Below are positions 7,317 to 27,882 of a stretch of DNA of 30,620 nt, piece after piece; within the stretch, counting starts at the first letter, position 1, and every line of letters begins with the position of its first letter. Under the pieces are notes generated by a model. It made no database searches. It was not told where the DNA came from and saw nothing but the letters and a program-made list of their open reading frames with translations. The position numbers and the translations under genes are program-made. Origin of the DNA: a virus; IMG/VR virus record IMGVR_UViG_3300033571_010974, positions 1 to 30,620 of that record. One strand, given 5' to 3'.

Positions 7317-7326
7317 GTATCCAGAC
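7317..7326 (-). promoter_or_regulatory. Recurrent GGATAC motif, copy at 7317
   Basis: Minus strand GTCTGGATAC followed by AGGTAGGCG, in the 37-bp gap before the 89-aa gene; 28 bases to the ATG. It abuts the stop codon of the upstream HTH gene. Same core as the copy at 11066. The following GTAGGC also follows the copy at 25319. Confidence 0.6.
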
Positions 7327-7715
7327 TAACAGCGATCAGTGAGGTCCTCCAAGAACGTCGAAACGTCGCGGTCGACCTCGAATATCGCGTCCGGAAATGA
7401 GCGGCTCACGACTGGGTCAGGTTCAGGCTTCCACCCCACTCGCCTTCGAGCACGCTCTTCTTCGCTCCAGCCGGCCTGGAATTCCAGGCACTTCTGCCTG
7501 ATCTCGGACTCGGAGGGAATATAGGCTTTACGATGCCCCGCTTTGGCGCCATGCCAACTCTCTCGGCGGGGGAGCTTTAGCTCGCGTCGCGTGATGTCAC
7601 ACCGATCCGCTGATATCTTCAGCGTCTCGGCGATGATTCGAGTCGGCGTCCCCGCCAACCACATCTTCGTGAACGTCGCTGTGCATACGACGACCTTCGG
7701 CTTCTTGCCGCTCAT
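7326..7715 (-). CDS. HTH protein, paralogue of the one at 9799-10125
   Basis: 129 aa from ATG at 7715 (MSGKKPKVVVCTA). Residues 10-46 hold a helix-turn-helix of the form FTKMWLAGTPTRIIAETL. After a linker, SEIRQKCLEFQAGWSEEERA and RRRVGWKPEP form a second conserved block. The gene at 9799-10125 has the same two blocks (FEKLWLTTTPTEMAARYG; EEILERAAEVRKKWSHEEEQ, then RRLVG), so the two are paralogues. A small DNA-binding regulator or recombination-associated protein is likely. No good ribosome binding site is seen; its first 119 bases overlap the end of the upstream glycosyltransferase-like gene. A TTG at 7739 is an alternative start. Confidence 0.65.
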   Translation of the reverse strand: MSGKKPKVVVCTATFTKMWLAGTPTRIIAETLKISADRCDITRRELKLPRRESWHGAKAGHRKAYIPSESEIRQKCLEFQAGWSEEERARRRVGWKPEPDPVVSRSFPDAIFEVDRDVSTFLEDLTDRC

Positions 7716-8607
7716 GTTCAGGAATCCAGAAGGAGACAACCCTTGATGATGGGTTGACGTAAAAATCCCCTCCCAGAGACTTGTGAAATGGAACGTGCTC
7801 GCAATCCCCTCCCGTGTATTGTCCGGCGATGTAGTCCGATGCGCGGTACACGGCCAGTTGGCCGAACGCTGAGTTCATCCTCACAGGCGGCGAGCCGACC
7901 GGCGGATGCCAGAGATGGAACCAGAGCATGTCCTGGCGTTCTTTCCACCATGTCCATCGGCATGCCCATGCGTCGTAGTGGCAAAGAGTCGGCTGCGACC
8001 AGACGGGCGGCCCCCACTCGCACCACGAGTAGCTCGCCATGCCCGAAGCGTTGCTGTACTCCTTGAAGTCTTCGAGGTGCCCGATCGTGTTGGCGATGCC
8101 GTCGACGCTGAAGCCGCCCCAGGGATCGGTGTCGAAGACTACGACGTAGTCGGCGTTTGTCTTCTCGGCCACCCAGAGGCGGCACTGATTTCTGTACTCG
8201 GCCAGGGCGTGAGTTCTCTCGGCGGCCTTCGTGAAGTTCAGATGCGGCCGTCCGTTGTTTCGCATCTCGCAGTGTCGATCAGGCCCCGATTCTTTCCAGT
8301 GGGTGAGATAGTCCTTCGTCTCGTCCGTGGAGTCGTTCTCGTAGAGGAAGGTCCACGAGTGTCGAAACATTTCCCCGGCCTGCTCGACACGCTTGAGAGT
8401 GAACGGCAGGAATGGCATCGCATTGCGACAGATGCCGACGAATGCGACGGAGCGGAACTTCGCCGCCTGCTTGCCGAGCGAGACGCATCGATCGTACTCT
8501 TCGGCGAACTCGGGGTCTGGATTGAGGATCAGGTCGACGTCGTGTCTCTGAATCTCTGCGAGGCTCAGTTGAATTTGCACAGGTGCGTGTACCCCTTCTC
8601 TTCGCAT
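7597..8607 (-). CDS. Glycosyltransferase-like protein, GT69/CAP59-like
   Basis: 336 aa at most; a GTG at 8580 would give 327 aa and reduce overlap with the upstream gene. Segments include FVGICRNAMPFLPFTLKRVE, FLYENDSTDETKDYLTHW, YVVVFDTDPWGGFSVDGI and MNSAFGQLAVYRASDYI. The run of acceptor/donor-type motifs, an ENDS-D-T turn and a DTD (DxD-like, metal and nucleotide-sugar binding) resembles the alpha-1,3-mannosyltransferase CAP59 family (GT69). It would transfer a sugar to an acceptor glycan or protein. Its last about 40 codons overlap the HTH gene and look like shadow sequence (QEAEGRRMHSDVHED); a frameshift or a true long overlap is possible. Its neighbours are another glycosyltransferase-like gene and an FkbM methyltransferase. 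Confidence 0.65.
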   Translation of the reverse strand: MRREGVHAPVQIQLSLAEIQRHDVDLILNPDPEFAEEYDRCVSLGKQAAKFRSVAFVGICRNAMPFLPFTLKRVEQAGEMFRHSWTFLYENDSTDETKDYLTHWKESGPDRHCEMRNNGRPHLNFTKAAERTHALAEYRNQCRLWVAEKTNADYVVVFDTDPWGGFSVDGIANTIGHLEDFKEYSNASGMASYSWCEWGPPVWSQPTLCHYDAWACRWTWWKERQDMLWFHLWHPPVGSPPVRMNSAFGQLAVYRASDYIAGQYTGGDCEHVPFHKSLGGDFYVNPSSRVVSFWIPEHERQEAEGRRMHSDVHEDVVGGDADSNHRRDAEDISGSV

Positions 8608-9209
8608 TGGTGGCAGAGCACATACGGAGAAAGCTCGGCCGTGGTTAGCTCGGGGTAGCCGTAGTAGCCGTAGACATTCGGCCTATGGGGCCTGCTCTCG
8701 TCGGCGTGGACGTGGAACGTCTTGAGAGACAACGCCGGGTCCGCGATGCGGACTCCGTTATCCACCGCCCATCCCACGAGCACGTTGTCGCAGCCTATGT
8801 GGCCCATCGGAATCTCGATTTCGACCGACGGAATCGAATCGCCGACGAAGAACCAGCTATCCTGAGTGCCGCTAAAGAACTTCTCTTTATCGTAGTGGCC
8901 GAGCATTCTCGGCGTCTTGGGAGACTCCCACCGAGTCAACGCAAGCAGTGAGCACTTCTCAAGCAAGGATTCGGCCTGCATGCACGAGGCGTCGAAGATG
9001 ATGTCGCTATTAGCGACGACGCAGACTTCTCCTGGGAACGCCTTGTGGCACACGTCCATCAGTCCGCCGATCGTCCATCTCTCCTTGTCGCCGTCGACCG
9101 TCGCGATACGGTCGAAGACTCCGGACTCCTCGTTCTCCTTCCGGCACCGGGCGATCTCAGCGTCGCGAGCTTCGTTGCCGGTTGAGTAGGTCTGGAGGAG
9201 GAGGATCAT
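8565..9209 (-). CDS. Glycosyltransferase-like protein (GT-A type suspected)
   Basis: 214 aa, ATG at 9209 overlapping the upstream TGA (ATGA). It begins MILLLQTYSTGNEARDAEI. GEVCVVANSDIIFDASCM has the pattern of a GT-A strand ending in a D-I-x-F/D element, followed by SLLALTRWESP, DSWFFVGDSIP and GCDNVLVGWAVDNGVRIADP. Such N-S-D-I and C-D-N elements are common in sugar-transferring proteins of phages and capsule clusters, but no exact family is recognised. It precedes the GT69-like gene with a small overlap and follows FkbM, so all three probably act on one glycan. Confidence 0.5.
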   Translation of the reverse strand: MILLLQTYSTGNEARDAEIARCRKENEESGVFDRIATVDGDKERWTIGGLMDVCHKAFPGEVCVVANSDIIFDASCMQAESLLEKCSLLALTRWESPKTPRMLGHYDKEKFFSGTQDSWFFVGDSIPSVEIEIPMGHIGCDNVLVGWAVDNGVRIADPALSLKTFHVHADESRPHRPNVYGYYGYPELTTAELSPYVLCHQCEEKGYTHLCKFN

Positions 9210-9799
9210 TTCCCAATCGCCCAACAATGCCCAGGGTGAGCCCCAGGAATAGGATGAGGAATTCGCTCGACAGACTTGCCGAGCCTCTGAAGCTCAAGAG
9301 AGACTTCCGCAAAAGTATCGTGGCACTCGACGACGAACGATGTTCGCTTCCAGTTTTCGGTCTTCAGGCATCCACGAAGGGCACCGACCTCTCCCCCCTC
9401 GATGTCCATCTTCACGAAGTCGGCCCCTTCGGGGAACAGGTCGTCCATCGACACAACCAGGACGGTCGACGACTCGACGACCGGCGCCTCAGACTGACTG
9501 CCTGCGCCGACGGGGTGTGCTTCGAGCAGCGAGTTCTGGTCAGGGCTCGGGCGAAGGTAAAGAGTGCCAATGCCAGTCTTCTCGCCGACCGCGTAGGGTG
9601 CAACCGAGACGCGAGGGATTTCGCCAATCAGCGAATAGGCCCGCTCGTCGGGCTCGACGGCGACGACGCTTTGAAACTCGCTCGCTAGGGCGCGAGACCA
9701 GTCTCCGCGATTGGCTCCGATGTCCGCCGCCAGGGCACGCGAGGCAGGCAGGGCCGCCGAGACTGAACCAGAGAGCCAAGACTCGGACTGGACGTTCAT
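9206..9799 (-). CDS. FkbM-family SAM-dependent methyltransferase
   Basis: 197 aa. LAADIGANRGDWSRALA (residues 23-39) is the glycine-rich SAM-binding loop (D-x-G-A-N-x-G), VVAVEPDERAY (45-55) ends the second strand with an acidic ribose contact, and VSMDDLFPEGADFVKMDIEG (116-135) carries the FkbM signature VKMDIEGGE. FkbM enzymes O-methylate sugars or small molecules; with two glycosyltransferase-like neighbours, sugar methylation is likely. It starts at ATG 9799, overlapping the upstream stop (TGATG), with GAGG six bases before. Confidence 0.8.
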   Translation of the reverse strand: MNVQSESWLSGSVSAALPASRALAADIGANRGDWSRALASEFQSVVAVEPDERAYSLIGEIPRVSVAPYAVGEKTGIGTLYLRPSPDQNSLLEAHPVGAGSQSEAPVVESSTVLVVSMDDLFPEGADFVKMDIEGGEVGALRGCLKTENWKRTSFVVECHDTFAEVSLELQRLGKSVERIPHPIPGAHPGHCWAIGK

Positions 9800-10125
9800 C
9801 AAATCCTCGAAAACGAAGGAGCCTCTATTTCACCGACCTTGATCTCTGGGGCGATCCACTTTCTTCCCGTCCCCCGGCTTCCGACGAGGCGTCTTTGCTC
9901 CTCCTCGTGGGACCACTTTTTTCGCACCTCGGCGGCTCGCTCCAGGATTTCCTCGGCGCTTGGGCTCTCCAGGCTCGCCTCGATCTCCGCTCGCGTCGGA
10001 AGCCCGAACGATTTTGCTCGGTAGTAAATCGCCATCCGGGAGATGCCGTACCTCGCCGCCATTTCCGTTGGCGTTGTCGTGAGCCAGAGCTTCTCGAATT
10101 CGTCCCGCCGAATTGTCGTGTCCAC
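9799..10125 (-). CDS. HTH protein, paralogue of the one at 7326-7715
   Basis: 108 aa, GTG start with AGGAGG 8 bases upstream. The N-terminal half is a helix-turn-helix (FEKLWLTTTPTEMAARYGIS and RMAIYYRAKSFGLPTR). A second block, EEILERAAEVRKKWSHEEEQ and RRLVGSRGTGRKW, is basic and helical. Same layout as the 129-aa protein at 7326-7715; together they flank the three sugar-modification genes. Likely a sequence-specific DNA-binding protein; whether it regulates this cluster is unknown. Confidence 0.65.
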   Translation of the reverse strand: MDTTIRRDEFEKLWLTTTPTEMAARYGISRMAIYYRAKSFGLPTRAEIEASLESPSAEEILERAAEVRKKWSHEEEQRRLVGSRGTGRKWIAPEIKVGEIEAPSFSRI

Positions 10126-10180
10126 CGAAAAACCTCCTGATAAACCAGTCGAACATGGGATTCCTTTTCAAATGGCCCGC

Positions 10181-10213
10181 CCCCGCCGACGCCCTACCCA
10201 GACGTCAGCGGGG
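10181..10213 (-). terminator. GC-rich hairpin between CAP and HTH genes, possible terminator
   Basis: In the 110-bp gap after the CAP-domain gene stop (10236) and before the HTH gene start (10125), 10181-10191 pairs with 10203-10213 (11 bp, one mismatch) around an 11-base loop. No clear T-run follows on the minus strand (only TTTGAAAAGGA further down), so termination is not assured. The position is right for the end of an operon. Confidence 0.3.
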
Positions 10214-10235
10214 ACGGAACCACCGGAGGGGACGA

Positions 10236-10625
10236 TCAGGGCGCGAATTGCTGCACCCAGTAGGTCTTGCCGTCGGGGCCGACGAACCCGGCCACGCCGA
10301 CCTTGCTGTATCGACGATTCAAGATGTTCGCCCGATGGCCGGGCGAGTGGAGCCACACGACGACGGCGTCGCTCGCGAATGGCTGGCCGGTTGCGACGTT
10401 CTCTGCAACGCCGGCCGAGTGATAGAGAGCCATGTCTCTAGCAAGACGACGTGCATGGCGACGGGCCGAGCCCATCAGTCGGCAGTCAATCACGAGAGGC
10501 TGAATGCCGTTCGTGATTCGAGCCTCGTTTGTCTTCTCGACGAGTTGAGACTCGCCGGGAGTCAAGACTGAGCACGGCTCGCCTTCGCCTGCAAGGGCCA
10601 GAAGCATGAGCATGATGAAATTCAT
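10236..10625 (-). CDS. Secreted CAP-domain protein (SCP/PR-1 superfamily)
   Basis: 129 aa with a hydrophobic N-terminus (MNFIMLMLLALAGEGEPCS) that looks like a short signal peptide. The CAP fold is supported by LVEKTNEARITNGIQPLVID, HSAGVAENVATGQ, VVVWLHSPGHRANILNRRYS and a final GKTYWVQQFAP. His and Glu (HSAG.AEN) and H in SPGHR correspond to the usual CAP cavity residues. Bacterial CAP proteins are exported and bind or cleave extracellular ligands; activity cannot be told from sequence. Export from an infected cell or an envelope location is inferred. The ATG has AAGGAA 9 bases before it, inside the gap after the acetyltransferase gene. Confidence 0.8.
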   Translation of the reverse strand: MNFIMLMLLALAGEGEPCSVLTPGESQLVEKTNEARITNGIQPLVIDCRLMGSARRHARRLARDMALYHSAGVAENVATGQPFASDAVVVWLHSPGHRANILNRRYSKVGVAGFVGPDGKTYWVQQFAP

Positions 10626-10639
10626 CGCGAGTTCCTTCT

Positions 10640-11047
10640 CTACGAGTTTTCGATCCAGTCCGTCCCGCGACGCTCGAACAAGCGAACGTCACGGCATCCA
10701 ACGCTTCGTGCGATTTCCACGCAGTACGGGGCGAAGACGGCGACCGTCTCCTGTGTGTCGATGCAGCCTGCGGCCGCCAGGAGCGAGGTCGCCGCACGAG
10801 CGAGCCCACGGCGACGAAACGGCTCTCGCGTGAAGCCCTCGATCGTCTGCATCCCACGCCACTCGTGAGTCGCTGCCCAGGCGGCGATCGGCGACGCGGC
10901 GTCTCGAATGATCGCGATGGGCGTGGTGCTGCCCTCGCGATTCTTGACCTCTTCATGGAACTCGGAGCCCGGGTTCGTCATCGAGTTCACGATGACGCCG
11001 GCGTCCGAATCAGAGAGGCGTCCGACGGTAAGAACAACTGCATCCAT
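10640..11047 (-). CDS. GNAT-family N-acetyltransferase
   Basis: 135 aa. The acetyl-CoA binding motif (R/Q-x-x-G-x-A/G) is seen in FTREPFRRRGLARAATSLLA (residues 72-91), and the following strand and helix are VAVFAPYCVEIARSVGC. The final strand DVRLFERRG fits the GNAT fold. It transfers an acetyl group from acetyl-CoA to an unknown substrate, which could be a host or phage protein or a small molecule. ATG at 11047; the motif copy at 11066-11075 is 18 bases upstream, so this gene likely begins a transcript. Confidence 0.75.
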   Translation of the reverse strand: MDAVVLTVGRLSDSDAGVIVNSMTNPGSEFHEEVKNREGSTTPIAIIRDAASPIAAWAATHEWRGMQTIEGFTREPFRRRGLARAATSLLAAAGCIDTQETVAVFAPYCVEIARSVGCRDVRLFERRGTDWIENS

Positions 11048-11065
11048 GCGGTCGACAATGTACCC

Positions 11066-11075
11066 GTATCCAGAC
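11066..11075 (-). promoter_or_regulatory. Recurrent GGATAC motif, copy at 11066
   Basis: Minus strand TTGACCAATAGTCTGGATACGG. Core GTCTGGATAC followed by GGGTAC. It sits 18 bases before the acetyltransferase ATG. A TTGACC (11080-11085) lies 4 bases upstream, too close to act as a sigma70 -35 for a -10 at the motif. Confidence 0.65.
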
Positions 11076-11081
11076 TATTGG

Positions 11082-11183
11082 TCAACGGTTTTTCTCGATC
11101 TTCACACTTTGATCGTTGTTGACCTTGACCTTCACCGGCTCAGGTTTCTTCGGGGCTGAAACCTTGCGTTCAATCTTCACCAT
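11082..11183 (-). CDS. Very small lysine-rich protein (33 aa)
   Basis: 33 aa, MVKIERKVSAPKKPEPVKVK and VNNDQSVKIEKNR. ATG at 11183, with GAGG 9 bases before it; it overlaps the last 14 bases of the upstream 91-aa gene. Mostly basic and Pro/Lys/Val-rich; might bind nucleic acid or be a linker peptide. No family recognised. Confidence 0.5.
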   Translation of the reverse strand: MVKIERKVSAPKKPEPVKVKVNNDQSVKIEKNR

Positions 11184-11445
11184 CTTGAAACCTCGCAATA
11201 AAAAGGGGACCGTTCTCTCCGACGTAAGCTGAGAGCGTATTAAAACCCAGGAACTCCCTGGCCTCATCATCTGTCATTCCGTCCCTGGACACGAGAATGT
11301 CTACACACTTCTCGTAGTCGTAGGCGACGACCTGGGCGTGATGCTGGTTGACGACGTATCCGATGGCCGCGTCCTCGAACCCGTCCGCCAGGAGGGCGTC
11401 AGGGTTGATATCGGCAATCTCAGTCTTCCATGTTTCGGATTGCAT
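11170..11445 (-). CDS. Conserved phage protein of unknown function
   Basis: 91 aa from MQSETWKTEIADINP. Elements ALLADGFEDAAIGYVV, VAYDYEKCVDILVSRDGMTD and DEAREFLGFNTLSAYVGENG recall a small protein that recurs in many phage genomes, but its function is not known to me. AGGA precedes the ATG (11445) by 6 bases. It overlaps the end of the upstream 76-aa gene by 26 bases and the start of the 33-aa gene by 14 bases. Confidence 0.65.
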   Translation of the reverse strand: MQSETWKTEIADINPDALLADGFEDAAIGYVVNQHHAQVVAYDYEKCVDILVSRDGMTDDEAREFLGFNTLSAYVGENGPLFIARFQDGED

Positions 11446-11650
11446 TGTCCTGGTATCCGGAGGTGTCCTCGATCGCCGACCGACTGGAGCCCGAGCATCG
11501 CAACGAAGGCCAGTCGACCGTGTAGTCGACGACGTCAACGATCTCGCTCACCCACTTGCCATCCCGCAGAACCATCTTCTTTTCGGTCCTGATCACAGGC
11601 CGCTTCGACGGCTCGGGGGGCCAATTTTTTCTGGACGTGATGCAGCCCAT
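11420..11650 (-). CDS. Small protein of unknown function
   Basis: 76 aa beginning MGCITSRKNWPPEPSKRPVI, with a middle EKKMVLRDGKWVSEIVDVVD. The start ATG (11650) overlaps the upstream stop (TGATG). No signal or membrane segment is seen despite the early cysteine, and no family recognised. It is part of a chain of small genes 12108-11082. Confidence 0.5.
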   Translation of the reverse strand: MGCITSRKNWPPEPSKRPVIRTEKKMVLRDGKWVSEIVDVVDYTVDWPSLRCSGSSRSAIEDTSGYQDNAIRNMED

Positions 11651-12108
11651 CAGGAAAGCTCCTCAATCGGGCGAAGCGAGGCCTGGGGGACGAAGTAGGC
11701 GGCCGCCCTGCCGCCGTACTCCTTCTGAAACTCCGGTTTCTTTGCGTCCTTGCCGAGAATCCATCCGTGGATCGTGTAGCTCGGGCACCTGCCAGTCACG
11801 AGTACATAAGGCTTGTCGTCGGCGTCATGCTGACGGACGATCAGGTCGTAGTCGGCTCGGCTCCGAGTCCGGACATGGATGCCCGGCAGGTCGTCTCTGG
11901 AGAACGAGTTGACGCTGCCGTCCCAATAGACGCCGAGAGACTTGGCGACCGCCATCTCTCCGCAGGCGCCCTCGATGTGCTCGCTCCATCCTTCGCTTGT
12001 GCATCCGTAGGCGTCATGGAGACCGGCCTTAATGCTCGCGAGGTGTCGCATCCTGCCGACGTCGCTCGCCATCGCGGCTTCATGCCATGCCAGCTTGATC
12101 TCTTTCAT
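11650..12108 (-). CDS. Conserved phage protein, possible PD-(D/E)XK-like fold
   Basis: 152 aa, starting MKEIKLAWHEAAMASDVGRM. EHIEGACGEMAVAKSLGVYW, then SRDDLPGIHVRTRSRADYDL and KPYVLVTGRCPSYTIHGWIL suggest an alpha/beta domain with conserved Glu, Asp and Arg. The pattern E-x-A-x-A-K ... D-L-x-V-R-T recalls a nuclease-like core found in several small phage proteins, but the K of a D-x-E-x-K motif is not certain. It lies next to a VRR-NUC gene. Start has AGGA about 10 bases before. Role unknown. Confidence 0.55.
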   Translation of the reverse strand: MKEIKLAWHEAAMASDVGRMRHLASIKAGLHDAYGCTSEGWSEHIEGACGEMAVAKSLGVYWDGSVNSFSRDDLPGIHVRTRSRADYDLIVRQHDADDKPYVLVTGRCPSYTIHGWILGKDAKKPEFQKEYGGRAAAYFVPQASLRPIEELS

Positions 12109-12379
12109 CGAGAATCCTTTCCGCTTCCTGTTTGCTCGTCACGGTCTCCGCCGTGGCTCCTCCGACCGTCCTGATCTCGTGCATCCGCTGTTTCTGTAAT
12201 TCCGTCGGCTTCTTTCCGGGTTGCTTCACTTCGAGGAACACGGCCCGGCCATGCTTCACGCACAAGAGGTCCGGTATGCCCGCCGTCTGCATCGGGCCGC
12301 CCGCGATCTTGAAGGTCCACCAGCCGCGAGACTTGGCGGACGCGACGATCGACTTGGTTATCGTGGACTCAAGCGCCAT
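12080..12379 (-). CDS. VRR-NUC domain nuclease
   Basis: 99 aa from MALESTITKS (ATG 12379). The VRR-NUC core is RGWWTFKIAGGPMQTAGIPD, VKHGRAVFLEVKQPGKKPTE and LQKQRMHEI: Asp37, and Glu50/Lys52 in FLEVK, are the metal and catalytic residues of this PD-(D/E)XK branch. Stand-alone phage VRR-NUC proteins of about 100 residues act as structure-specific DNA nucleases, probably in recombination or branch processing. It overlaps the GIY-YIG gene end by 11 bases and the next gene start by 29 bases. Confidence 0.8.
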   Translation of the reverse strand: MALESTITKSIVASAKSRGWWTFKIAGGPMQTAGIPDLLCVKHGRAVFLEVKQPGKKPTELQKQRMHEIRTVGGATAETVTSKQEAERILDERDQAGMA

Positions 12380-12902
12380 CTCCCTTGTTGCACTTCCTAC
12401 CCCTCTCCCAGGCCGCCCTCTGCCTCTCGGCAAGCAGGCGTCTCGTCTCCTCGCTTACTGGCCTGCCCTTTGGCATTGCCTTGCCCGCCTCCGACAGATT
12501 TCTTTTGTGTTCCTCGGATAACTTCCTGCCAGTGAGGGCGAGACTGATCTTCCGGTTGTGCTCGATCGCGGTCTTCCTGTACTCGCTGATCTTGGCCTTC
12601 GCCTCGTCGCTCATCTTGTAGCCGTGGCCGCCTCGGCCGCCGGTCTTCAGGTTGTAGACGTCGTCTCTCGCACACCACTGCTCGTCGACGACGGCCGCCT
12701 CAATCAAGTACGCCTCCTCGGCCGTCTCGACTTCGATGAGTGTCGTCCGCTCGAAGTTCTCGCGTCCGTACTTTCGGACCGCTCGGCGGATGACGGCTCC
12801 GCTTCCGAGGTACAGTTCAAACTTAGGTCGAGTTGTCTTACAGACCCCGACGTATATCGATCCGGTGACGAGGTTTCTCGTCTCGTAGACAATCCACGGC
12901 AT
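12369..12902 (-). CDS. GIY-YIG homing endonuclease with NUMOD3 repeats
   Basis: 177 aa. The GIY-YIG N-terminal domain is seen in PWIVYETRNLVTGSIYVG (residues 2-19), followed by the YLGSGAVIRRAVRKYGREN segment and LIEAAVVDEQW. From about residue 93 three NUMOD3-type DNA-binding units follow (SDEAKAKIS; LTGRKLSEEHKRNLSEA; GRPVSEETRRLLAE). This is the SegB/I-TevI-like form of a free-standing homing endonuclease, cutting DNA near its insertion site to spread. It overlaps the 3' part of the GP88-like gene by about 199 bases on the same strand, suggesting insertion into that gene. Confidence 0.85.
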   Translation of the reverse strand: MPWIVYETRNLVTGSIYVGVCKTTRPKFELYLGSGAVIRRAVRKYGRENFERTTLIEVETAEEAYLIEAAVVDEQWCARDDVYNLKTGGRGGHGYKMSDEAKAKISEYRKTAIEHNRKISLALTGRKLSEEHKRNLSEAGKAMPKGRPVSEETRRLLAERQRAAWERGRKCNKGDGA

Positions 12903-13618
12903 TCCTTTGCCCTTTCAACGGCCCCTCCGTTGAAGCAACGCCTGCATCCCTCGCAGACGTTGGTGATGTCCTCGCTTGAATTGAGTGGGCAATCGTTTCC
13001 GTACAATGGCGACCCCTTGGGGTCGTAGCCGTCACGGAAGATCACCGGGGCGATGTCGCCGCTCGTGGGCTGCTCGCCCGCATCGCACTGATAGCTCCAG
13101 AACCACTGGAGCCCGTCGGGGACGAGCCCGCGAAACTCGTCGAGCCGAGCCCACGACGAGCGGTCGACGCTGAAGTGCAAGTAGACGTTAGGCCTGGGTG
13201 TGACCTGGGCCGCGAGCCTCGGAATGCGGCTCACGACCCACTGCGGGACGTCCGGCATCGCGGCGGCCACGGCGTCGAGGCAAACGACCGACTCCTCGAA
13301 CAGGTCTCCGCCGCCGTTCCAGCGGATGAACGTCATCCTCTTTCGTCGAGCGGACTTCACGATTCTCTCGGCGATGCCCTGGGGATCAGCCTTGATCGAG
13401 TTCATCAGTCTGTGTTGCTTCCTGAGACTTGCCGTCCACGTCGACGGGCCGGAAGCGAAGTAGCAGGTGTCTGCGCAGACAATCGTGGGCATGCACGTTC
13501 CGATGATCGGGACGTTCAAGCTGTAGCCCGTGACCTTATTCGTCGAGAACGGGTCTTCGTCCTCGGAGAGGAGGTCGGGGTATTGAATGTGTTTCTTAGA
13601 GAGAGTTTTGACCGACAT
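12704..13618 (-). CDS. GP88-like protein with extended or remodelled C-terminus
   Basis: 304 aa from ATG 13618. It has the features of the mycobacteriophage Gp88 / radical-SAM-like phage proteins: GTCMPTIVCADTCYFASGPS (cysteine cluster), a following helix with SLRKQHRLMNSIKADPQG, MTFIRWNGGGDLFEESVVCL, VPQWVVSRIPRL, VYLHFSVDRSSWA, and a final C-xx-C-xx-C (VCEGCRRCF, near residue 222-229). Function is unknown for this family; a metal or Fe-S cluster is likely. After about residue 232 the sequence turns Arg/Ser/Thr-rich and coincides with the GIY-YIG gene in another frame, so the natural end is probably near 12920 and the rest is read-through. ATG overlaps the upstream GIY-YIG gene by 23 bases. 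Confidence 0.65.
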   Translation of the reverse strand: MSVKTLSKKHIQYPDLLSEDEDPFSTNKVTGYSLNVPIIGTCMPTIVCADTCYFASGPSTWTASLRKQHRLMNSIKADPQGIAERIVKSARRKRMTFIRWNGGGDLFEESVVCLDAVAAAMPDVPQWVVSRIPRLAAQVTPRPNVYLHFSVDRSSWARLDEFRGLVPDGLQWFWSYQCDAGEQPTSGDIAPVIFRDGYDPKGSPLYGNDCPLNSSEDITNVCEGCRRCFNGGAVERAKECRGLSTRRETSSPDRYTSGSVRQLDLSLNCTSEAEPSSAERSESTDARTSSGRHSSKSRRPRRRT

Positions 13619-14318
13619 TGGCTTCCGTGCCGGTGGCGTCCTTTTCTTTTGCTGACTCAAGCATCCTGTGTGTAGAAATTCCATTCCCTGGAGGGTCCAG
13701 CATTGCTACAAAATATGCCTCAATTCTTCTTCGCTCATGTGGCTCGCAGCGAACAATTCCAATCCTTCTGTCGCCAATCTCTTTCCTGGCAGACTTGACC
13801 CTGTCCGGGACGTTTTCCGACTCTCCGACATAGTGACAAGAGCCGTCCTCGTTGAACGCGAAGTAGACTCCACAAAATCGCGGCATGGCCCTAATTTCTT
13901 GTACCGTGTGCAGACTCACTGGCTCTGCCGGCATTTCGGAAATCTGATCTGCGTTCATTGTTTTTATTTCCGCACCTCCTGTTTCCGGAAACTTGGCCCA
14001 CCCCATGTACCTGAACGCATCGCGGACGATGTTCTTGGGCCAGTGAAGTCTCTTTCTTTTTCCTGAATTGACGTCCACCTTTCCGCCGCCCATAGCGACG
14101 CGAATGACGCCAGACGAAAACTCAGGCTGATCCTCGCATCGCTCAAAATCAAATGTCGCGTGAGACCACCCTTCCTCTGGCTTGATCAAATACAGTTTCG
14201 CGATCGTAGGATCGGCTTCTTCGTCAAGGGTCCAGAAGAGGTCAACCATAGTGAAGCCGGCGGGGCACTGAATTACGCTGATTGAATCATTGGGCCAAAC
14301 TGCAACAACTAATGGCAT
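13596..14318 (-). CDS. GIY-YIG nuclease with an unidentified N-terminal domain
   Basis: 240 aa. The C-terminal part holds GVYFAFNEDGSCHYVGESEN (150-169), VPDRVKSARKE with Arg173, and HERRRIEAYFVAMLDPPGNG with Glu200, the full GIY-YIG catalytic set. Residues 1-140 form a separate domain (VVAVWPNDSISVIQCPAGFT; FWTLDEEADPTIAKLYLIKP; GVIRVAMGGGKVDV) with no recognised family. No NUMOD repeats. Start ATG has AAGGAGG seven bases before; motif copy 14341-14350 is 22 bases upstream. It overlaps the start of the GP88-like gene by 23 bases. It may be a homing nuclease, a repair nuclease or a defence function. Confidence 0.75.
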   Translation of the reverse strand: MPLVVAVWPNDSISVIQCPAGFTMVDLFWTLDEEADPTIAKLYLIKPEEGWSHATFDFERCEDQPEFSSGVIRVAMGGGKVDVNSGKRKRLHWPKNIVRDAFRYMGWAKFPETGGAEIKTMNADQISEMPAEPVSLHTVQEIRAMPRFCGVYFAFNEDGSCHYVGESENVPDRVKSARKEIGDRRIGIVRCEPHERRRIEAYFVAMLDPPGNGISTHRMLESAKEKDATGTEANVGQNSL

Positions 14319-14340
14319 TGCGGCCTCCTTGCCTGTGCTT

Positions 14341-14350
14341 TTGTCCGTAC
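14341..14350 (-). promoter_or_regulatory. Recurrent GGATAC motif, variant at 14341
   Basis: Minus strand GCATAGTACGGACAAAAGCA; core GTACGGACAA. It lies 22 bases before the ATG of the GIY-YIG nuclease gene, after the stop of the 165-aa gene. The variation is in the last three bases of the core. Confidence 0.55.
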
Positions 14351-14368
14351 TATGCAGCCAGAGTCATG

Positions 14369-14866
14369 TCAGCCGTCGGAGTGTTCCGTGTATTGCAGCA
14401 TCAGCCCCGCGAACTTGTAGAAGTCCTCAAGTTCCATTGTGTCCCTGTGCCCCACGCCCAGTGCGTCCCAGACGAGGAACCAGTAGTCGACTCCGTGCAT
14501 ATCCCAACGCTTCAGGGCAGCTACCGTCCTTCGCCATTCGCTTTTCGGTATCGCTTCTTCTCTCGCGAATTTCTCGACGATCTTAGGGACTACGGTTTTC
14601 AGGTAGTTGATCGACTCCGCCGGAGTCGTCGCCGCGCTTGGGAGGGGGCAAAGAACCAGCCTTGGGTAAATTGTCCGGATGGCCGCGTCCGCTTTCGCAA
14701 GACTGTCTTTCGTAATCCTTCCGAAACAGCGTGCGACTGCGTGATCGCAGTCCGTGTAATCGCTAGTCTTCTGCGTCCTTGGCTTCAGGGGGAATTTTGG
14801 CTCTGCGCGGTAGCAACTCCTCCACGCGTCGGCGACCGACCAGTTTTCAAGACAAGAAATCTTCAT
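14369..14866 (-). CDS. Unknown protein, paralogue of the one at 16087-16566
   Basis: 165 aa, ATG with GGAGGG 9 bases before. Begins MKISCLENWSVADAWRSCYR; also ALKRWDMHGVDYWFLVWDAL and LEDFYKFAGLMLQYTEHSDG. The gene at 16087 shows the same order (LDNWTVAQAWEHCY; LRRWELEQLDADDWELIYES; VWNFYKFAQSHVLYS), so the two arose by duplication. Both are helical with many Trp and acidic residues; no known motif. They bracket a bacterioferritin-like gene and a DNA methyltransferase. Function unknown. Confidence 0.6.
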   Translation of the reverse strand: MKISCLENWSVADAWRSCYRAEPKFPLKPRTQKTSDYTDCDHAVARCFGRITKDSLAKADAAIRTIYPRLVLCPLPSAATTPAESINYLKTVVPKIVEKFAREEAIPKSEWRRTVAALKRWDMHGVDYWFLVWDALGVGHRDTMELEDFYKFAGLMLQYTEHSDG

Positions 14867-14888
14867 CACTAAACCCTCCAGTAAGTGA

Positions 14889-16084: not shown

Positions 16085-16086
16085 GA

Positions 16087-16566: not shown

Positions 16567-16575
16567 AAAGAAAAA

Positions 16576-16616: not shown

Positions 16617-16641
16617 ATACACACCAATCCGTGGCGTTGGG

Positions 16642-20367: not shown

Positions 20368-20428
20368 CTTGCCCACCTCCTCGAAAAATGAACTTCCTGA
20401 ACCTAAGAAAAAGACTCAAAGTTCTCTC

Positions 20429-20457
20429 TATATAGGAGCCCTAAACCCTTATCTCAA
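20429..20457 (-). promoter_or_regulatory. Sigma70-like promoter for the helicase gene
   Basis: Minus strand TTGAGA (20452-20457), 17-base spacer, TATATA (20429-20434). About 60 bases before the helicase ATG at 20367. The -10 is part of a palindrome-like element (TCTCTATATAGGAG), so a regulator could bind over it. Confidence 0.6.
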
Positions 20458-20529
20458 AAAGACTTCTGACCCGAAAATGGTGTGTTTGAACTTTGAACTT
20501 TAGATTTTGAGTTGGCTGGGTCTGTAGGG

Positions 20530-20543
20530 TCCCTATATAGGGA
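20530..20543. repeat. Perfect 14-bp palindrome with TATATA core
   Basis: TCCCTATATAGGGA. A similar imperfect copy (TCTCTATATAGGAG) lies about 105 bases away at 20425-20438. The pair could be operators of one regulator or origin sites. Confidence 0.6.
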
Positions 20544-20553
20544 AAAGTTCTTT

Positions 20554-22173
20554 TCACTCGATCGACAGCTTCTCCAGGGCGCGGAGGTGGTCCTCCGTCC
20601 AGACGATCCACCGAGAGCGGTGTCCGCCGATCGTCTCCAGGCGGTCCTGGAACCGGTCCAGGCCGGGGCTCACGGCGTTCAGGAGCCGCCGACGCAGGTC
20701 GACCACGTCTCGGTTCGTGATGAACGGCCAACGCTTCTGGACTGACTCCCAGGTCGACTCCCATTTGAGGAGCAACTCGTCCTTGCCCGACCGCTTGTTC
20801 TTGATCCACTTCGGCGTCCCGCTTTCCGCCAGTTCGTCGTCGTCGCTGTTCGACGCCTCGAACCGCTTGAGGTAGCCCAGGAGATACCCTGCCGTCCGCG
20901 AGTACGTCCTGCACTCTGCCGGGGGAAACTCCTCCTCACAGTCTTCGAGCAGCCGGACCAGGAGGCCTTCGGTATGCCGCCACGGCCCGCCTTCCTCGCG
21001 GGTGCTCTCTCCGTCCCAAGTCTTCGCCCAGGAGGTCTTGGACGGGTTCGAGGGGTTAAACGAGCCCGTCGCCGCCAGGATCGCGTCCGCCATCAGGTTC
21101 GATGACCTGAGCGTGTGGGCGTCGACGAAGACGTTGACTCGCTCTCCGCGAACACGGGGGTGCAGGATCGAGAGCCTGTAGCTCTTCGGGTCGCTATGGA
21201 TGACCGCCAGCCGCCACTGCCCAGGCTCGTACTCGCCTGTCTCGGCGTTGTACACGAGCCCGATCCTCTCCAGCGGCCGACGGGCCCGCCGCTCCTCGGC
21301 TCTCGTCATGTAGAAATCAAACTGGCTGTTCACGATCGAGACCACCTCCTCGCGAGACTTGGGCGGGACGCAGTGGCGATCGTTCTGGGAGAGCATCCAG
21401 TCGATGACTTCCAGCTTATTGGCCTCGGTGTACTCCGGCCGAATCAGCCAGCAATATCGAGACGCGAGCCCGACAAGGAACGCGTGGCGGCCGCCTGTCG
21501 CGACCTTCTGCACCTCACCGTCGACGCCACCGGCGCAGACTTCGCGAGCCTGGGCAACGGCGCCGCCGGTTCCTTGGCGACTCTTTTGAAAGACTTTCTC
21601 CAGGAACTTCGCCGGCAGTCTGGCGGGCGGCACGTCGTCCGGCGATCGGCCGGGAAGCCACTGGTACTGAACGCCGGTGCGGTGCCAGGACATGGGGAAT
21701 ACGCTTTGCGTCCCCTTCTCGCCTCCGCCGATCCGGACTTCGAGGCCGTCGACTTTCACGACGCCGCTCGCGGGCATCTCCTCCTGGTACTCAAACAGGT
21801 AGTGAGGACCTCGCGAGCCCATGTAGGCCGTAGTGTCGATTCGGTCGAGGCCGAACTCCCGCATGACCCGCAAGGCGTTTTCGTCGTCAGCCTCGACGTC
21901 GATGATCCCAGACGCGGGGCCGAGCCGGACGCCAATGTTCCAGCGGACGTTGGCGTTTATGTTCTCGAACCACCCGGCGATTGTGTTCTCGTCGTCGGTC
22001 GCGTGAGTCTGCCACTCATGTTCCACGGGATGCTTGCCGGCCGACGGGCAACTCTTGCCGCGAGCGCATGTGCATGAGAGATCGTCTCGCAGGCCGTAGA
22101 TTTTCACGACCTTCCACCCCCGGGCCGCGAGACTTGCGGCCGCTGCGAAAACTTCTTCTGCCTTGTACTCCAT
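20554..22173 (-). CDS. Bifunctional primase-polymerase (Prim-Pol) protein
   Basis: 539 aa. Residues 5-190 form the Prim-Pol domain (PF09250-type): LAARGWKVVKIYGLRDD, C-x-C-x5-C at 34-42 followed by SAGKHP, the catalytic acidic cluster GIIDVEADDENA (about 89-100), RGPHYLF with His124, and GLEVRIGGG. It makes primers and may extend them for phage replication. Residues 200-310 are a helical linker; the rest (to 539) includes DVVDLRRRLLNAVSPGLDRF and is likely DNA-binding or helicase-like but has no Walker motif that I see. AAGGAGG lies 9 bases before ATG 22173. Leader hairpin and motif copy precede it. Confidence 0.8.
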   Translation of the reverse strand: MEYKAEEVFAAAASLAARGWKVVKIYGLRDDLSCTCARGKSCPSAGKHPVEHEWQTHATDDENTIAGWFENINANVRWNIGVRLGPASGIIDVEADDENALRVMREFGLDRIDTTAYMGSRGPHYLFEYQEEMPASGVVKVDGLEVRIGGGEKGTQSVFPMSWHRTGVQYQWLPGRSPDDVPPARLPAKFLEKVFQKSRQGTGGAVAQAREVCAGGVDGEVQKVATGGRHAFLVGLASRYCWLIRPEYTEANKLEVIDWMLSQNDRHCVPPKSREEVVSIVNSQFDFYMTRAEERRARRPLERIGLVYNAETGEYEPGQWRLAVIHSDPKSYRLSILHPRVRGERVNVFVDAHTLRSSNLMADAILAATGSFNPSNPSKTSWAKTWDGESTREEGGPWRHTEGLLVRLLEDCEEEFPPAECRTYSRTAGYLLGYLKRFEASNSDDDELAESGTPKWIKNKRSGKDELLLKWESTWESVQKRWPFITNRDVVDLRRRLLNAVSPGLDRFQDRLETIGGHRSRWIVWTEDHLRALEKLSIE

Positions 22174-22203: not shown

Positions 22204-22234
22204 GGCCCCGAGCAGCCCAGTGCTGCCCGGGGCC
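22204..22234 (-). promoter_or_regulatory. Leader hairpin before primase-polymerase gene
   Basis: GGCCCCG/CGGGGCC (22204-22210 with 22228-22234) continued by GCAGC/GCTGC around a CCAGT loop: a 12-bp stem with one mismatch. The motif copy 22236-22245 ends one base before its first stem base on the minus strand. No T-run follows; the gene's AAGGAGG lies after it. It could protect the 5' end of the RNA. Confidence 0.7.
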
Positions 22235-22235
22235 C

Positions 22236-22245
22236 GTATCCGTAC
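22236..22245 (-). promoter_or_regulatory. Recurrent GGATAC motif, copy at 22236
   Basis: Minus strand GCAATTGTACGGATACGGGC. Full consensus GTACGGATAC, followed by GGGCC, which opens a strong hairpin. 62 bases to the ATG of the primase-polymerase gene. Confidence 0.7.
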
Positions 22246-22251
22246 AATTGC

Positions 22252-23097: not shown

Positions 23098-23934
23098 TCA
23101 ACCAAGGTCCAAAACTTCTTCTTCGTGGTACGAGTCGGGCGCCCACACGCCCGTCTCCTCGCGACGACGCATTTCGTAAAGCGTCTCGTCAATCTCTTGG
23201 CGAGCACGGTCGACCGCCTCGGGTGTCAACGAGACGACCTTCACGTCGTAGGGAGCGAACGTCTGCACGACGATGAAGCGAAACGTGAACGGCTTCCAGC
23301 CGGCTGCGATAGCCGCGTCGGTGTACCAAGCCGCTTGCCAGTCGTAACCGTATCTCCTGAAGCTCCACTTCAGTTCATGCCACTCGCTCGACGTGGTCTT
23401 GAGGTCGAACCACTCCGTCGCGGTCACGCCGTCGGCGCGGGCCTTCAGTCGGTGGCCGTTCTTGTCCTCGCGGAACACCGAAAGCTGGGAGTGAGTCACG
23501 GCCTCCATCAGTTCGTTTGCGAGTCGGTGCTCGCGAAGTGATGCGACCATGTCTCCGACCTTGCCGAAGTCGGTTTCGTTGCATTCGACGGCTCCGGCCG
23601 GGAGGCTGGCCTTCCAGGCCTTGAACGCATTGCCCCGCCGCGACCCGTCGGCCGCGAGAGCGTCCGGGGGTGGCACGATGCAACGCTTCCTCCAGTCGAT
23701 ACCCCGCACCTCGGCCTCGAACGCGGCGTCGACGAGCGAGCCGAACGAGGTGGCCGAGTTGCCGCCGAACAGCGACTTCTTCTCGACCTCCGCGTACCGC
23801 TGCGCGCGACCGCCGCGAGGACCGCGATAGCGGTGAACCTGCGAGCGACTCTTGTGAGTCTTCTCGGCGTGGTAGTCCTCGTTCGTCATGTCGAAATCAA
23901 TCCGAATACCCGTTTCCGTACTAATAACCAGCAT
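23098..23934 (-). CDS. PD-(D/E)XK nuclease, RecB/Cas4- or RecE-like
   Basis: 278 aa, ATG 23934 with GGAGGG before it. N-terminus IRIDFDMTNEDYHAEKTHKS resembles the start of exonuclease VIII-like phage nucleases (N-E-x-YH). FGSLVDAAFEAEVRG (64-78) is the helix with conserved H/D, KARADGV and EWFDLKTTSS (D168; D177, K179) the active-site D...DxK, and YDWQAAWYTDAA with Gln200 and Tyr204 the RecB-family helix. It should degrade or resect DNA ends with the neighbouring putative ssDNA protein. It overlaps the SNF2 gene end by 14 bases. Motif-like GTACGGAAAC (23912-23921) lies in codons 5-8. Confidence 0.75.
   Translation of the reverse strand: MLVISTETGIRIDFDMTNEDYHAEKTHKSRSQVHRYRGPRGGRAQRYAEVEKKSLFGGNSATSFGSLVDAAFEAEVRGIDWRKRCIVPPPDALAADGSRRGNAFKAWKASLPAGAVECNETDFGKVGDMVASLREHRLANELMEAVTHSQLSVFREDKNGHRLKARADGVTATEWFDLKTTSSEWHELKWSFRRYGYDWQAAWYTDAAIAAGWKPFTFRFIVVQTFAPYDVKVVSLTPEAVDRARQEIDETLYEMRRREETGVWAPDSYHEEEVLDLG
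23912..23921 (-). promoter_or_regulatory. Weak copy of the recurrent motif at 23912 (inside coding)
   Basis: Minus strand TTATTAGTACGGAAACGGGT; core GTACGGAAAC followed by GGGTA. It falls at the junction of two genes, within the first codons of the nuclease. If the nuclease started at ATG 23890, the motif would be 21 bases upstream; but the ATG at 23934 has the better ribosome binding site. Confidence 0.35.
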
Positions 23935-25300
23935 GGGCGCCAACCCTCCGTGTAAGACGACTGAACACAGACTCGGCGACGTCCGCCTTGTCTCTCAAAG
24001 CTCGGTAGATCGATTCGTCGATCGTGTCTTTCGCGACGACGTGGTAGTAGCGGCAGCACTTCGTCTGCCCTGGACGGTGAAGACGCCCGACGGCCTGCTC
24101 GAAGTCGCCGAGCGAGTGGCTCAAGCTGTAGAAGACGCAGTAGCTGGCCCTGGTGAGGTCCACGCCCGCGCCGCCTGCTTGTTGCTGGACGACGATCACG
24201 TCCGTCTTGCCGTCCTGCCATTCCTCAAGTTGCTTCGCATGCCCGCAGAGGAGGGAGACCGTCCGTCCCGACGCCTCGCAAGCCTCGGCCACCTCTCTCA
24301 AGTCTTCGAGGAACCGAACGAATACGACGAGCGGCTCTCTCAACGGGAAGTCTTCGAGCCAGTCTTTAAGCCAGCCCCGCTTGTCGGGCTCTCCACAGAT
24401 GCGGTGAAATCGATCGCCGTCGTCGGGCTTCGCGTGTCCGCTCGCGGCGAGATGGAGACGTGCAGTTACGACCATCCTGTTCGCTGCCGTGACGACCTCG
24501 CCGCTCGCAATCCGTGCGATCATCTCCTCTTCGAGGACGTCGTAGAACGCCCGGACGACGGAGTTGAGTTCGATGTCGATATGCGTGTGGATCGCCTCCG
24601 GCAGCGTGAGCACGTCGGCTGCCTGGACGCGGTGAACGTGCTCGTCGATCCTGGCCGCGAGGGCCTGGAGGCCTTCGCGTTTCCAGTCGAGAATCCAGCC
24701 CTTGTACTGCGGATGAAGGACGCAAAGCCGCTCTCGGAGGGCCCGCTCGCTCGTGCCGAGGATCGAGTCGTCGAGAAAGCGGAACTGCCCGAACCAGTCG
24801 AGGGGATTGTTTGGCGTCGGCGTCCCCGTGAGGCAAATACGCTTCGCCTCCGGCCGGGCCTTGCCCAGCTTCCAGAGGAACTTCGAGGCGCGGCTGCTCC
24901 CCGACTTGATCCGATGAGACTCGTCGCAGACGATGGCGTCCCAGGCCGTTGCCTGAATCAGCTTGCCGATGTCGCCACGGTAGATCGAGTCGTAGTTGAT
25001 GACGATCGCGACCGGCCCGCCGACGGCGAGCCCGTCGCGAATCGCCTTGATCCGCTGTGCCGCCGTGCCCTTCACGGCGACGACGAACCGACGGCCGCCG
25101 TCAAACAGCCTGCCCTGCTTCGCCCAGGCGGGCCCGACGGCGATCGGGCAGACGACCAGAATGATCTTTTTGTCGGCCAGGGCCATCAGGGTCGTGCGGG
25201 TTTTTCCGCAGCCGACCTCATGGTTCAAATGACCGAAACGACGAGGCATCAGCCAGTCCTGGGCGGACCGCTGGTGCCCCCATGCCTGGGAGACGTCCAT
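23921..25300 (-). CDS. SNF2-like superfamily 2 helicase
   Basis: 459 aa. Walker A HEVGCGKT (27-34), motif II VCDESHRIK (DESH, 124-132), motif III LTGTPTPNNP (157-166), motif V QQAGGAGVDLT (373-383) and motif VI EQAVGRLHRPGQ (401-412) place it with the Swi2/Snf2 branch. It uses ATP to translocate on double-stranded DNA; phage forms occur with replication and recombination genes. Its length is short for the family, with no extra DNA-binding domain. ATG 25300, motif copy 18 bases upstream (25319-25328). It is followed directly by the nuclease gene. Confidence 0.85.
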   Translation of the reverse strand: MDVSQAWGHQRSAQDWLMPRRFGHLNHEVGCGKTRTTLMALADKKIILVVCPIAVGPAWAKQGRLFDGGRRFVVAVKGTAAQRIKAIRDGLAVGGPVAIVINYDSIYRGDIGKLIQATAWDAIVCDESHRIKSGSSRASKFLWKLGKARPEAKRICLTGTPTPNNPLDWFGQFRFLDDSILGTSERALRERLCVLHPQYKGWILDWKREGLQALAARIDEHVHRVQAADVLTLPEAIHTHIDIELNSVVRAFYDVLEEEMIARIASGEVVTAANRMVVTARLHLAASGHAKPDDGDRFHRICGEPDKRGWLKDWLEDFPLREPLVVFVRFLEDLREVAEACEASGRTVSLLCGHAKQLEEWQDGKTDVIVVQQQAGGAGVDLTRASYCVFYSLSHSLGDFEQAVGRLHRPGQTKCCRYYHVVAKDTIDESIYRALRDKADVAESVFSRLTRRVGAHAGY

Positions 25301-25318
25301 GTCTTTGCCTACCTACTT

Positions 25319-25328
25319 GTATCCGTAC
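25319..25328 (-). promoter_or_regulatory. Recurrent GGATAC motif, copy at 25319
   Basis: Minus strand AACAAAGTACGGATACAAGT; full consensus GTACGGATAC, preceded by an A+T-rich tract (AATAAACAAA) and followed by AAGTAGGTAGGC. 18 bases to the SNF2 helicase ATG. Confidence 0.7.
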
Positions 25329-25349
25329 TTTGTTTATTGAGAGCGGAGA

Positions 25350-25973: not shown

Positions 25974-26003
25974 TGGTATCTCCTTGCGTGTGTTAGGGGC
26001 GGC

Positions 26004-26035
26004 CCGGCGGGGAGGCCTCATGCCAACCCCGCCGG
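26004..26035 (-). promoter_or_regulatory. Leader hairpin after motif copy 26041
   Basis: CCGGCGGGG (26004-26012) pairs with CCCCGCCGG (26027-26035), 9 bp, with a 14-base loop that has an inner GGC/GCC. GGG(C) and GCCC outside may extend it. It begins right after the motif on the minus strand, as at 22236. The gene starts 30 bases after it. Confidence 0.65.
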
Positions 26036-26040
26036 TGCCC

Positions 26041-26050
26041 GTGTCCGTAC
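26041..26050 (-). promoter_or_regulatory. Recurrent GGATAC motif, copy at 26041
   Basis: Minus strand TTAATTTGTACGGACACGGG; core GTACGGACAC followed by GGGCACC, the start of a hairpin. 67 bases to the GTG of the TPR-like gene; immediately after the DUF932 gene end (26060). Confidence 0.65.
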
Positions 26051-26059
26051 AAATTAAAA

Positions 26060-26818: not shown

Positions 26819-26848
26819 TTCAATCGTCTCCGTGTGGTTGAGGTTCAC

Positions 26849-26858
26849 TTGTCCAGAC
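26849..26858 (-). promoter_or_regulatory. Recurrent GGATAC motif, variant at 26849
   Basis: Minus strand TACAATGTCTGGACAAGTG; core GTCTGGACAA. It directly follows the -10 (TACAAT) of the promoter at 26859-26886, so it covers the start-site region there. 30 bases to the DUF932 ATG. Confidence 0.55.
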
Positions 26859-26886
26859 ATTGTAGAAAATCAACAGCTATTGTCAA
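26859..26886 (-). promoter_or_regulatory. Sigma70-like promoter: TTGACA-N16-TACAAT
   Basis: Minus strand TTGACA (26881-26886), 16-base spacer, TACAAT (26859-26864), in the gap before the DUF932 gene. The best sigma70 match in the window. A variant of the recurrent motif follows it at once, as an operator would. Confidence 0.7.
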
Positions 26887-27194: not shown

Positions 27195-27538
27195 GTCTCG
27201 GTCCTCCTGATTTCGAGAAACAGTTCCTGCGGAGCCTCGGCGAAATACTTGAGCAATGCAGGGCACAGCCAGCCCTCGAATCCAAGCTGCTCACACCAGT
27301 ACCAGTTGCCGCCGTGCTCCTCTCGACGCCACTCCATGCGAGCCTGATGCCCTGGGAATGGCGACCCGCTGAACAGCACCGTGAACGCCTTTGAGCACCC
27401 GGGCACTCTCTGTGCCAGGAGCCCGAGGGCCACGTCCGCGCCGGCCACGAACGGCTCGCGGACGAGACCCACGGCTGGGTCGTCGAACACGAGGGCGCCG
27501 TCCTCCCATCGCGGATGGATGACATGGATCGAGTTCAC
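27191..27538 (-). CDS. DUF6717-like protein
   Basis: 115 aa, GTG start with GAGGAGG 9 bases before and GTGA overlap with the upstream stop. IHPRWEDGALVFDDPAVGLV, REPFVAGADVALGLLAQRV, FSGSPFPGHQARMEWRREEH, GNWYWCEQLGFEGWLCPALL and KYFAEAPQELFLEI follow the order of the DUF6717 family (known to me from cyanobacteria and planctomycetes), of unknown function. The family call rests on memory of its pattern. Confidence 0.6.
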   Translation of the reverse strand: MNSIHVIHPRWEDGALVFDDPAVGLVREPFVAGADVALGLLAQRVPGCSKAFTVLFSGSPFPGHQARMEWRREEHGGNWYWCEQLGFEGWLCPALLKYFAEAPQELFLEIRRTET

Positions 27539-27831
27539 GAAGGCACCTCCTCTGCGGTGATGACGGCTACAACGACGCTCATGTCGCTCGCGAGTCCTCG
27601 CGGGCTGATGGGGCGATCCGGAATCTCCCGGAGAGTCGCGAGCCCGCCGTAGGGCTGGATCGTGTAGCTACCCAGGCGGCTGCTTGCGAAGTCCTGGCAT
27701 TCGAGCAGGACGAATCCGGTCGGACTGAACAGCCGCCGGCGATGCCGAAGAACCTCGGCAAGCTCGTCGGGCGTGCTCTCCTGCCGCTCGCAGTAGCGTT
27801 TTGCAAACTCTTGGAAGTTGACGTGTTCCAC
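27535..27831 (-). CDS. Small protein of unknown function
   Basis: 98 aa, GTG at 27831 with AGGAGA and AGGAC elements before it. Helical start EHVNFQEFAKRYCERQESTP, then LFSPTGFVLLECQDFASSRL and ASDMSVVVAVITAEEVPS. No recognised family. First gene after the motif copy at 27866-27875; overlaps the next gene start. Confidence 0.6.
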   Translation of the reverse strand: MEHVNFQEFAKRYCERQESTPDELAEVLRHRRRLFSPTGFVLLECQDFASSRLGSYTIQPYGGLATLREIPDRPISPRGLASDMSVVVAVITAEEVPS

Positions 27832-27865
27832 TGTCCTGTCTCCTGTTGGGGGTGAGTGTGTACTC

Positions 27866-27875
27866 GAATCCGTAC
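27866..27875 (-). promoter_or_regulatory. Recurrent GGATAC motif, variant at 27866
   Basis: Minus strand TTGACGCCAAAGTACGGATTCG; core GTACGGATTC followed by GAGTACAC. A TTGACG lies 5 bases upstream, similar to the copy at 11066. 34 bases to the GTG of the 98-aa gene. Confidence 0.6.
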
Positions 27876-27882
27876 TTTGGCG

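Follow-up and report, generated by a model that had tools for sequence, protein, structure and literature searches.

A one-directional motif repeated between and inside genes of uncultured phages as a candidate set of operator and stoperator sites

The 30.6-kb virus record analysed here (IMG/VR IMGVR_UViG_3300033571_010974; 60% GC; all 30,620 nucleotides (nt) of it are referred to as the window) carries a repeated sequence motif that faces the direction of transcription, lies between as well as inside genes, overlaps sigma70-type promoters and is conserved in relatives. We read this motif, with a probability of about 0.68, as the asymmetric ~18–19-bp site of a phage-encoded repressor of a temperate phage, acting as operator at some positions and as stoperator at others. 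A minority of sites are located within or over a sigma70-type promoter, and a protein bound there would keep host RNA polymerase out (operator). The majority lie between and inside genes in one orientation, where bound protein would stop or slow the elongating polymerase (stoperator), and the 35–40 copies of a genome would together silence an almost entirely one-directional set of genes. That a repressor binds these sites and blocks elongation, and that this factor is a tandem winged-helix protein encoded beside the integrase of related genomes, is our inference.

Motif consensus, copy number and orientation

Genes were predicted with a codon-usage caller made for this analysis, which assigned 51 of the 52 window genes to the minus strand; promoters were predicted by consensus match, and the contigs are fragments. 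The non-coding share of the window is 10.7%. A search with its SNF2-like helicase (23921–25300) returned five close relatives from IMG/VR (G001–G005), two of them 94–96 kb in length, and searches with TerL and with the two-domain helix-turn-helix (HTH) protein described below returned 34 loci (67–100% identity) and 26 loci, respectively.

The window has seven exact matches to GTHYGGATAC. Every one is on the minus (gene) strand, the plus strand has none, and a reversed-pattern control of the same motif gave no match in the window. Each of the five close relatives has 8–16 exact copies on its coding strand and none on the opposite strand. We then counted copies with a 20-position weight matrix trained on the relatives: at a score >13 the window has 16 copies on the gene strand versus 0–1 on the other, with 0.25 per strand expected from first-order random sequence (0.25–0.65 per strand per genome). 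At a score >11, six genomes together have 157 sense and 4 antisense copies, and each 94–96-kb genome has ~35–40. The motif is thus real and stronger than first described. The original prediction had it facing the direction of transcription, which these counts bear out, and the matrix recovers its copies at 7317, 11066, 14341, 16647, 22236, 23912, 25319, 26041, 26849, 27866 and 29210; a degenerate copy suggested at 95 falls below even the loosest matrix threshold and is not a member. Five further window copies, at 12762, 12995, 15107, 17486 and 18400, lie inside genes.

The consensus from 114 non-redundant copies is AWWGTMYGGAYACGnKnAC (~19 bp), with information spanning positions −2 to approximately +16 and a purine favoured immediately 3′ of the core. 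Because no information lies further upstream, there is no fixed −35; the earlier remark to this effect for most copies is sound overall, yet three or four of the copies in the window fall within or over a sigma70-like promoter. The two clades differ in detail: clade 1 is rich in C at position 4 and in T at position 8, clade 2 in T at position 4 and in A at position 14.

Copies inside genes and in promoters

The copies had been described as lying in intergenic gaps, which is right for the 9 of 16 window copies that touch non-coding DNA; the rest are in coding sequence, still in sense orientation only, and approximately half of all copies lie inside genes. Genome-wide permutation of synonymous codons (copies at score >14) yielded 0.33 in-gene sense copies for G004 and 0.91 for G005, as compared with 16 and 19 observed, and there were no in-gene antisense copies in the same test. 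This excess over synonymous shuffles indicates that the in-gene copies are held by selection on synonymous codons. They are found in all three codon phases, reach deep into giant genes and in several cases share their position across genomes, for example in the UvrD-like helicase gene, divergent G006 included. In each of the 16 relatives examined, one copy lies ~30 nt past the portal start codon, and >3 kb separates it from the next gene; of the 34 TerL loci, nearly all that cover this region have a copy near the start of the portal gene. A promoter at this place would make little sense, whereas a roadblock would. Equal density and orientation in coding sequence had been named as an argument against the motif; density there is indeed high, but orientation stays one-sided, so that the motif is not refuted and a simple gap promoter is disfavoured.

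Clean intergenic sigma70 promoters (TTGACn-N16–18-TAnnnT) overlap a copy in 13 of 27 cases, and a test on five genomes found overlap for 10 of 21 versus 1.3 expected, homologous loci not being independent. TTGAC is enriched at −14 and −10/−9 before intergenic copies and not before in-gene copies. Two forward registers were seen, with the −10 at motif positions 8–13 (window 16644–16671) or 14–19 (window 11057–11085), and the window copy at 26849 starts right after a −10. In clade 2, the promoter located right after the two-domain HTH gene (TTGACn-N16-TACAnT) has its spacer and −10 taken up by a reversed motif at essentially every locus read, and a second promoter of that clade (TTGCnn-N16-TACAnT) carries a reversed motif in the same register; both are early promoters. 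Such mixed registers, together with both orientations, point to promoter occlusion by a bound protein and not to activation.

The window copies and the promoters associated with them are as follows, all on the minus strand, with matrix scores for the copies:

7310–7329 (core 7317–7326, GTCTGGATAC), minus: motif copy at a gap site, score 22.1
11059–11078 (core 11066–11075, GTCTGGATAC), minus: motif copy in the spacer of a sigma70-like promoter, score 26.6
11057–11085, minus: sigma70-like promoter TTGACC-N17-TACATT, its spacer filled by the motif, 9 nt before the start of gene 10640–11047; arrangement also in G001, G004 and G005
12755–12774 (core 12762–12771, GTACGGACGC), minus: motif copy inside a gene, score 19.8; kept in G001, G002, G003 and G005
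12988–13007 (core 12995–13004, GTACGGAAAC), minus: motif copy, in-gene by homology, score 22.6; kept in G001–G005
14334–14353 (core 14341–14350, GTACGGACAA), minus: motif copy at a gap site, score 20.1
15100–15119 (core 15107–15116, GAACGGATAC), minus: motif copy inside a gene, score 17.8
16640–16659 (core 16647–16656, GTCCGGATAC), minus: motif copy in a promoter, upstream of a leader that carries a terminator hairpin, score 24.7
16644–16671, minus: sigma70-like promoter TTGACA-N16-TACAGT, the TAC of its −10 being motif positions 8–10; also in G001, G004 and G005
17479–17498 (core GTACGGACAC), minus: motif copy inside gene 17135–17860, score 22.4; position kept in G001, G004 and G005
18393–18412 (core GTCCGGATAC), minus: motif copy inside the UvrD-like helicase gene 17857–20376, score 21.5; position kept in G001–G006
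22229–22248 (core 22236–22245, GTACGGATAC), minus: motif copy 6 nt past a stop codon, score 22.1
23905–23924 (core GTACGGAAAC), minus: motif copy where an exonuclease-like gene starts, score 19.3; kept in all close relatives
25312–25331 (core GTACGGATAC), minus: motif copy before the SNF2 helicase gene, score 24.6
26034–26053 (core GTACGGACAC), minus: motif copy followed by a conserved hairpin, score 20.7
26842–26861 (core GTCTGGACAA), minus: motif copy covering the expected start site, just 3′ of a −10, score 19.1
26859–26886, minus: sigma70-like promoter TTGACA-N16-TACAAT
27859–27878 (core GTACGGATTC), minus: motif copy with TTGACG 5 nt upstream, score 24.0
29203–29222 (core GTACGGATAC), minus: motif copy inside gene 29156–29371, score 21.0; kept in G001

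Several RNA-like structures accompany these sites. Strong conserved hairpins lie directly 3′ of the 22236 and 26041 copies, between motif and next gene, with a T-run in some relatives (for example, G002 7565); the one after 22236 precedes a primase-like gene and is kept in relatives. In window 16560–16671 (minus strand), a leader of ~75 nt comes after the motif promoter; it contains a conserved CCAAGGATTGG-like box and, immediately ahead of the next start codon, an intrinsic terminator. This arrangement, also seen at G001 21349, G005 67807 and G006 16321, looks like an attenuator or a small RNA. A conserved non-coding element, usually tandem, is located downstream of a motif-covered promoter at L202 11470–11625 and in L192, L195, L196, L197, L199, L203, L206 and L207/G010, with a single copy at G004 51487. 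It has an outer stem, an inner pairing and a possible pseudoknot (CGTAGCGAAG-GCTTCGG-TTA-CTTCGCT...ACCGAAGCCGCTTGTTCTCG), folds far better than shuffled sequence (z −4.4 and −4.0) and matched no Rfam family or tRNA, making it a candidate new phage RNA. Leaderless starts, with start codons 14–19 nt after the motif and no ribosome site, were also considered, and the excess of genes lacking a ribosome site was not significant (4:5 versus 31:96).

Candidate binder, integrase and alternative readings

A tyrosine integrase is encoded on the opposite strand in G004 and G005 and, by similarity, in G006. Adjoining it is the gene for a protein of 141–149 amino acids with two tandem HTH_17 winged-helix domains, located for example at G005 39174–39623 and G006 80949–81380; Pfam HTH_17 scored above cut-off in three of five of these proteins, and in two stretches of the G010 protein. 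The AlphaFold model (predicted local distance difference test score 80) has two repeated winged-HTH units and a basic tail, and its nearest folds in Foldseek are the Xis of phage Pukovnik (gp37; 4j2n, probability 1.00, 1.5 Å over 48 columns) and BldC (6amk and 6ama), with the weak E-values (0.01 or worse) that any small domain gives. A motif copy lies 12–45 nt upstream of this gene at 24 of 24 loci read. On these grounds the two-domain protein is, by inference, a candidate for the motif binder. Between the integrase and this gene lies a conserved block (TTGAnn...AATGGCGGGGAC; G004 47733–47890 and the equivalent in relatives) that looks like a leftward promoter spacer or part of attP. Two further small HTH proteins of the window, at 9799–10125 and 28377–28613 (both minus strand), are conserved in relatives; one weakly matches the D5-like regulator phrog_323 and the other is an HTH_17 protein. 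Nothing ties either to the motif, and both were set aside as binders.

Stoperator-like repressor sites were one of two options in the original prediction, and this option is supported by the single orientation, the placement of copies between genes and, under synonymous selection, inside them, the promoter copies in both orientations, the integrase and the two-domain protein preceded by a copy. Several observations weigh on the other side. A number of strong sigma70 promoters have no copy, and late tail-gene regions of some genomes are likewise free of copies (for example, G005 79–94 kb). The window fragment contains neither the integrase nor the candidate binder gene. At most loci, an intrinsic terminator, the motif and a ribosome site precede the two-domain gene in that order, and a promoter of its own is not visible. 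Finally, the two-domain protein adjoins the integrase and resembles Pukovnik Xis, and it could equally be an excisionase, or both.

The other option, a promoter for a phage or alternative polymerase or sigma factor, has fared less well. On this account the motif would be read by a phage-specific polymerase or a sigma/activator complex at intervals along the genome, as in T7, which would suit its one orientation, the many copies 18–45 nt before a start codon and the purine preference just after the core. It would also suit the hairpins that in some cases start right after the core, and the two-domain gene, where the motif follows a terminator and is the only promoter-like feature before the start. 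We consider it unlikely. The portal-gene copy, 30 nt in and >3 kb from the next gene in 16 of 16 relatives, the copies deep in giant genes and the reversed copies placed exactly in host-type promoters all speak against a promoter. No sigma70 region 2 was detected in 13 records by a search that matched the control genomes, and Pfam scans of the G005 proteins listed no polymerase family; the absence of a T7-type polymerase (PF00940) from six records is a weak argument, since the control gave no match.

Two more readings are very improbable. If the motif were an RNA element of the transcript, such as a nut/put-like antitermination or processing site, its orientation would follow transcription and its copies would lie in transcribed DNA, both of which are seen; however, a promoter does not transcribe the copy in its own spacer, and the sense RNA would lack reversed copies. 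The sites are moreover less structured than random windows (−22.3 versus −26.5 kcal/mol), and the window has no Rfam match. We give just as little weight to a polar signal in the DNA that serves recombination, replication or packaging, like Chi or KOPS, and would follow the genome and not transcription. These two polarities are confounded where nearly all genes run one way, but conserved reversed copies stand singly among forward ones, exactly inside promoters, and copies are concentrated in the 9–11% of DNA that is non-coding and enriched in sigma70 promoters.

Relation to known systems

Phages of the L5 type have 20–30 asymmetric sites oriented with transcription, of which some are in promoters and most elsewhere; the repressor gene has one upstream of it (PMC6550527). 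The repressor of these phages is monomeric, with two DNA-binding domains (PMC9283540). The present system resembles that of cluster A mycobacteriophages (L5 gp71 and the TipsytheTRex immunity repressor) in its asymmetric, mainly transcription-oriented sites at 20–40 per genome, some inside promoters and most outside (judged here on consensus promoters only), in a copy upstream of the presumed repressor gene, in the two DNA-binding domains of the candidate binder, and in an integration system that marks a temperate phage with no phage RNA polymerase found. It differs in its motif, which is another one and longer (~19 versus 13 bp); the L5 13-bp consensus is not enriched in the window (3 matches at ≤2 mismatches versus 1.5 expected). 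Here, the sites are not mostly in short intergenic gaps, about half being inside genes under synonymous selection, and some operators are reversed relative to their promoter. The candidate repressor, too, is different, being a Xis/BldC-type tandem winged-helix protein, and the phages belong to an unrelated uncultured family. A profile search of the PDB with the candidate repressor returned no L5-type repressor, a gp71 homologue elsewhere in the genome not having been searched for directly. We take the likeness to be convergent and not homologous: we claim a similar way of working, not membership of the L5 family.

BldC binds 9-bp direct repeats head to tail in a fixed direction, with CAATTCGGACAATTCGGACA as its optimal site (PMC5859096), and this site resembles the AWW...YGGAYA part of the motif. 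Each domain of the candidate binder shares its predicted fold with BldC and Pukovnik gp37 Xis; unlike in those proteins, the two domains are fused in one chain. The motif is not a plain 9-bp repeat, and the protein is a putative binder of it. Promoters of the T7 type are one-way, ~20 bp long and spaced along the genome, with some inside genes. The motif shares all four traits, but no polymerase was found here, sigma70 promoters are overlapped in both orientations and one copy lies just inside the portal gene.

The family has no close isolated member in our searches. A phage collection gave no DNA match to the window, that is, no isolated relative at the DNA level; helicase, primase and capsid proteins gave at best distant matches among isolated phages, with no close phage, and the two-domain protein gave none. 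A viral scan with the UvrD-like helicase found no relative, nor did a host search with TerL and integrase against 84,980 species genomes, and integrase matches in plasmids and phages were too weak for naming a host. After the portal gene, a giant protein with RAFCPTGEGGGxxNSC repeats is encoded (G005 2141–12315), fused to the portal in G004 (14115–21284); the idea that it is a virion RNA polymerase was rejected, since it had no match and lacked a convincing catalytic motif.

Repressor sites scattered in large number along a genome and acting one-way on elongation have been documented chiefly for one lineage, the cluster A actinobacteriophages. We tentatively propose, at somewhat less than even odds, that a new repressor family, with two fused Xis/BldC-like winged-helix domains binding asymmetrically, silences these ~100-kb uncultured phages by one-way elongation blocks written into open reading frames and gaps, a convergent invention of stoperators outside the cluster A lineage. 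The motif is also a simple signature for spotting members of this uncultured phage family. If the proposal is true, this would be a second system, with a motif and a candidate protein of its own, and would mean that the strategy evolves repeatedly; its in-gene sites and operators in both orientations would offer a case for comparison on whether polarity is needed for blocking elongation but not initiation.

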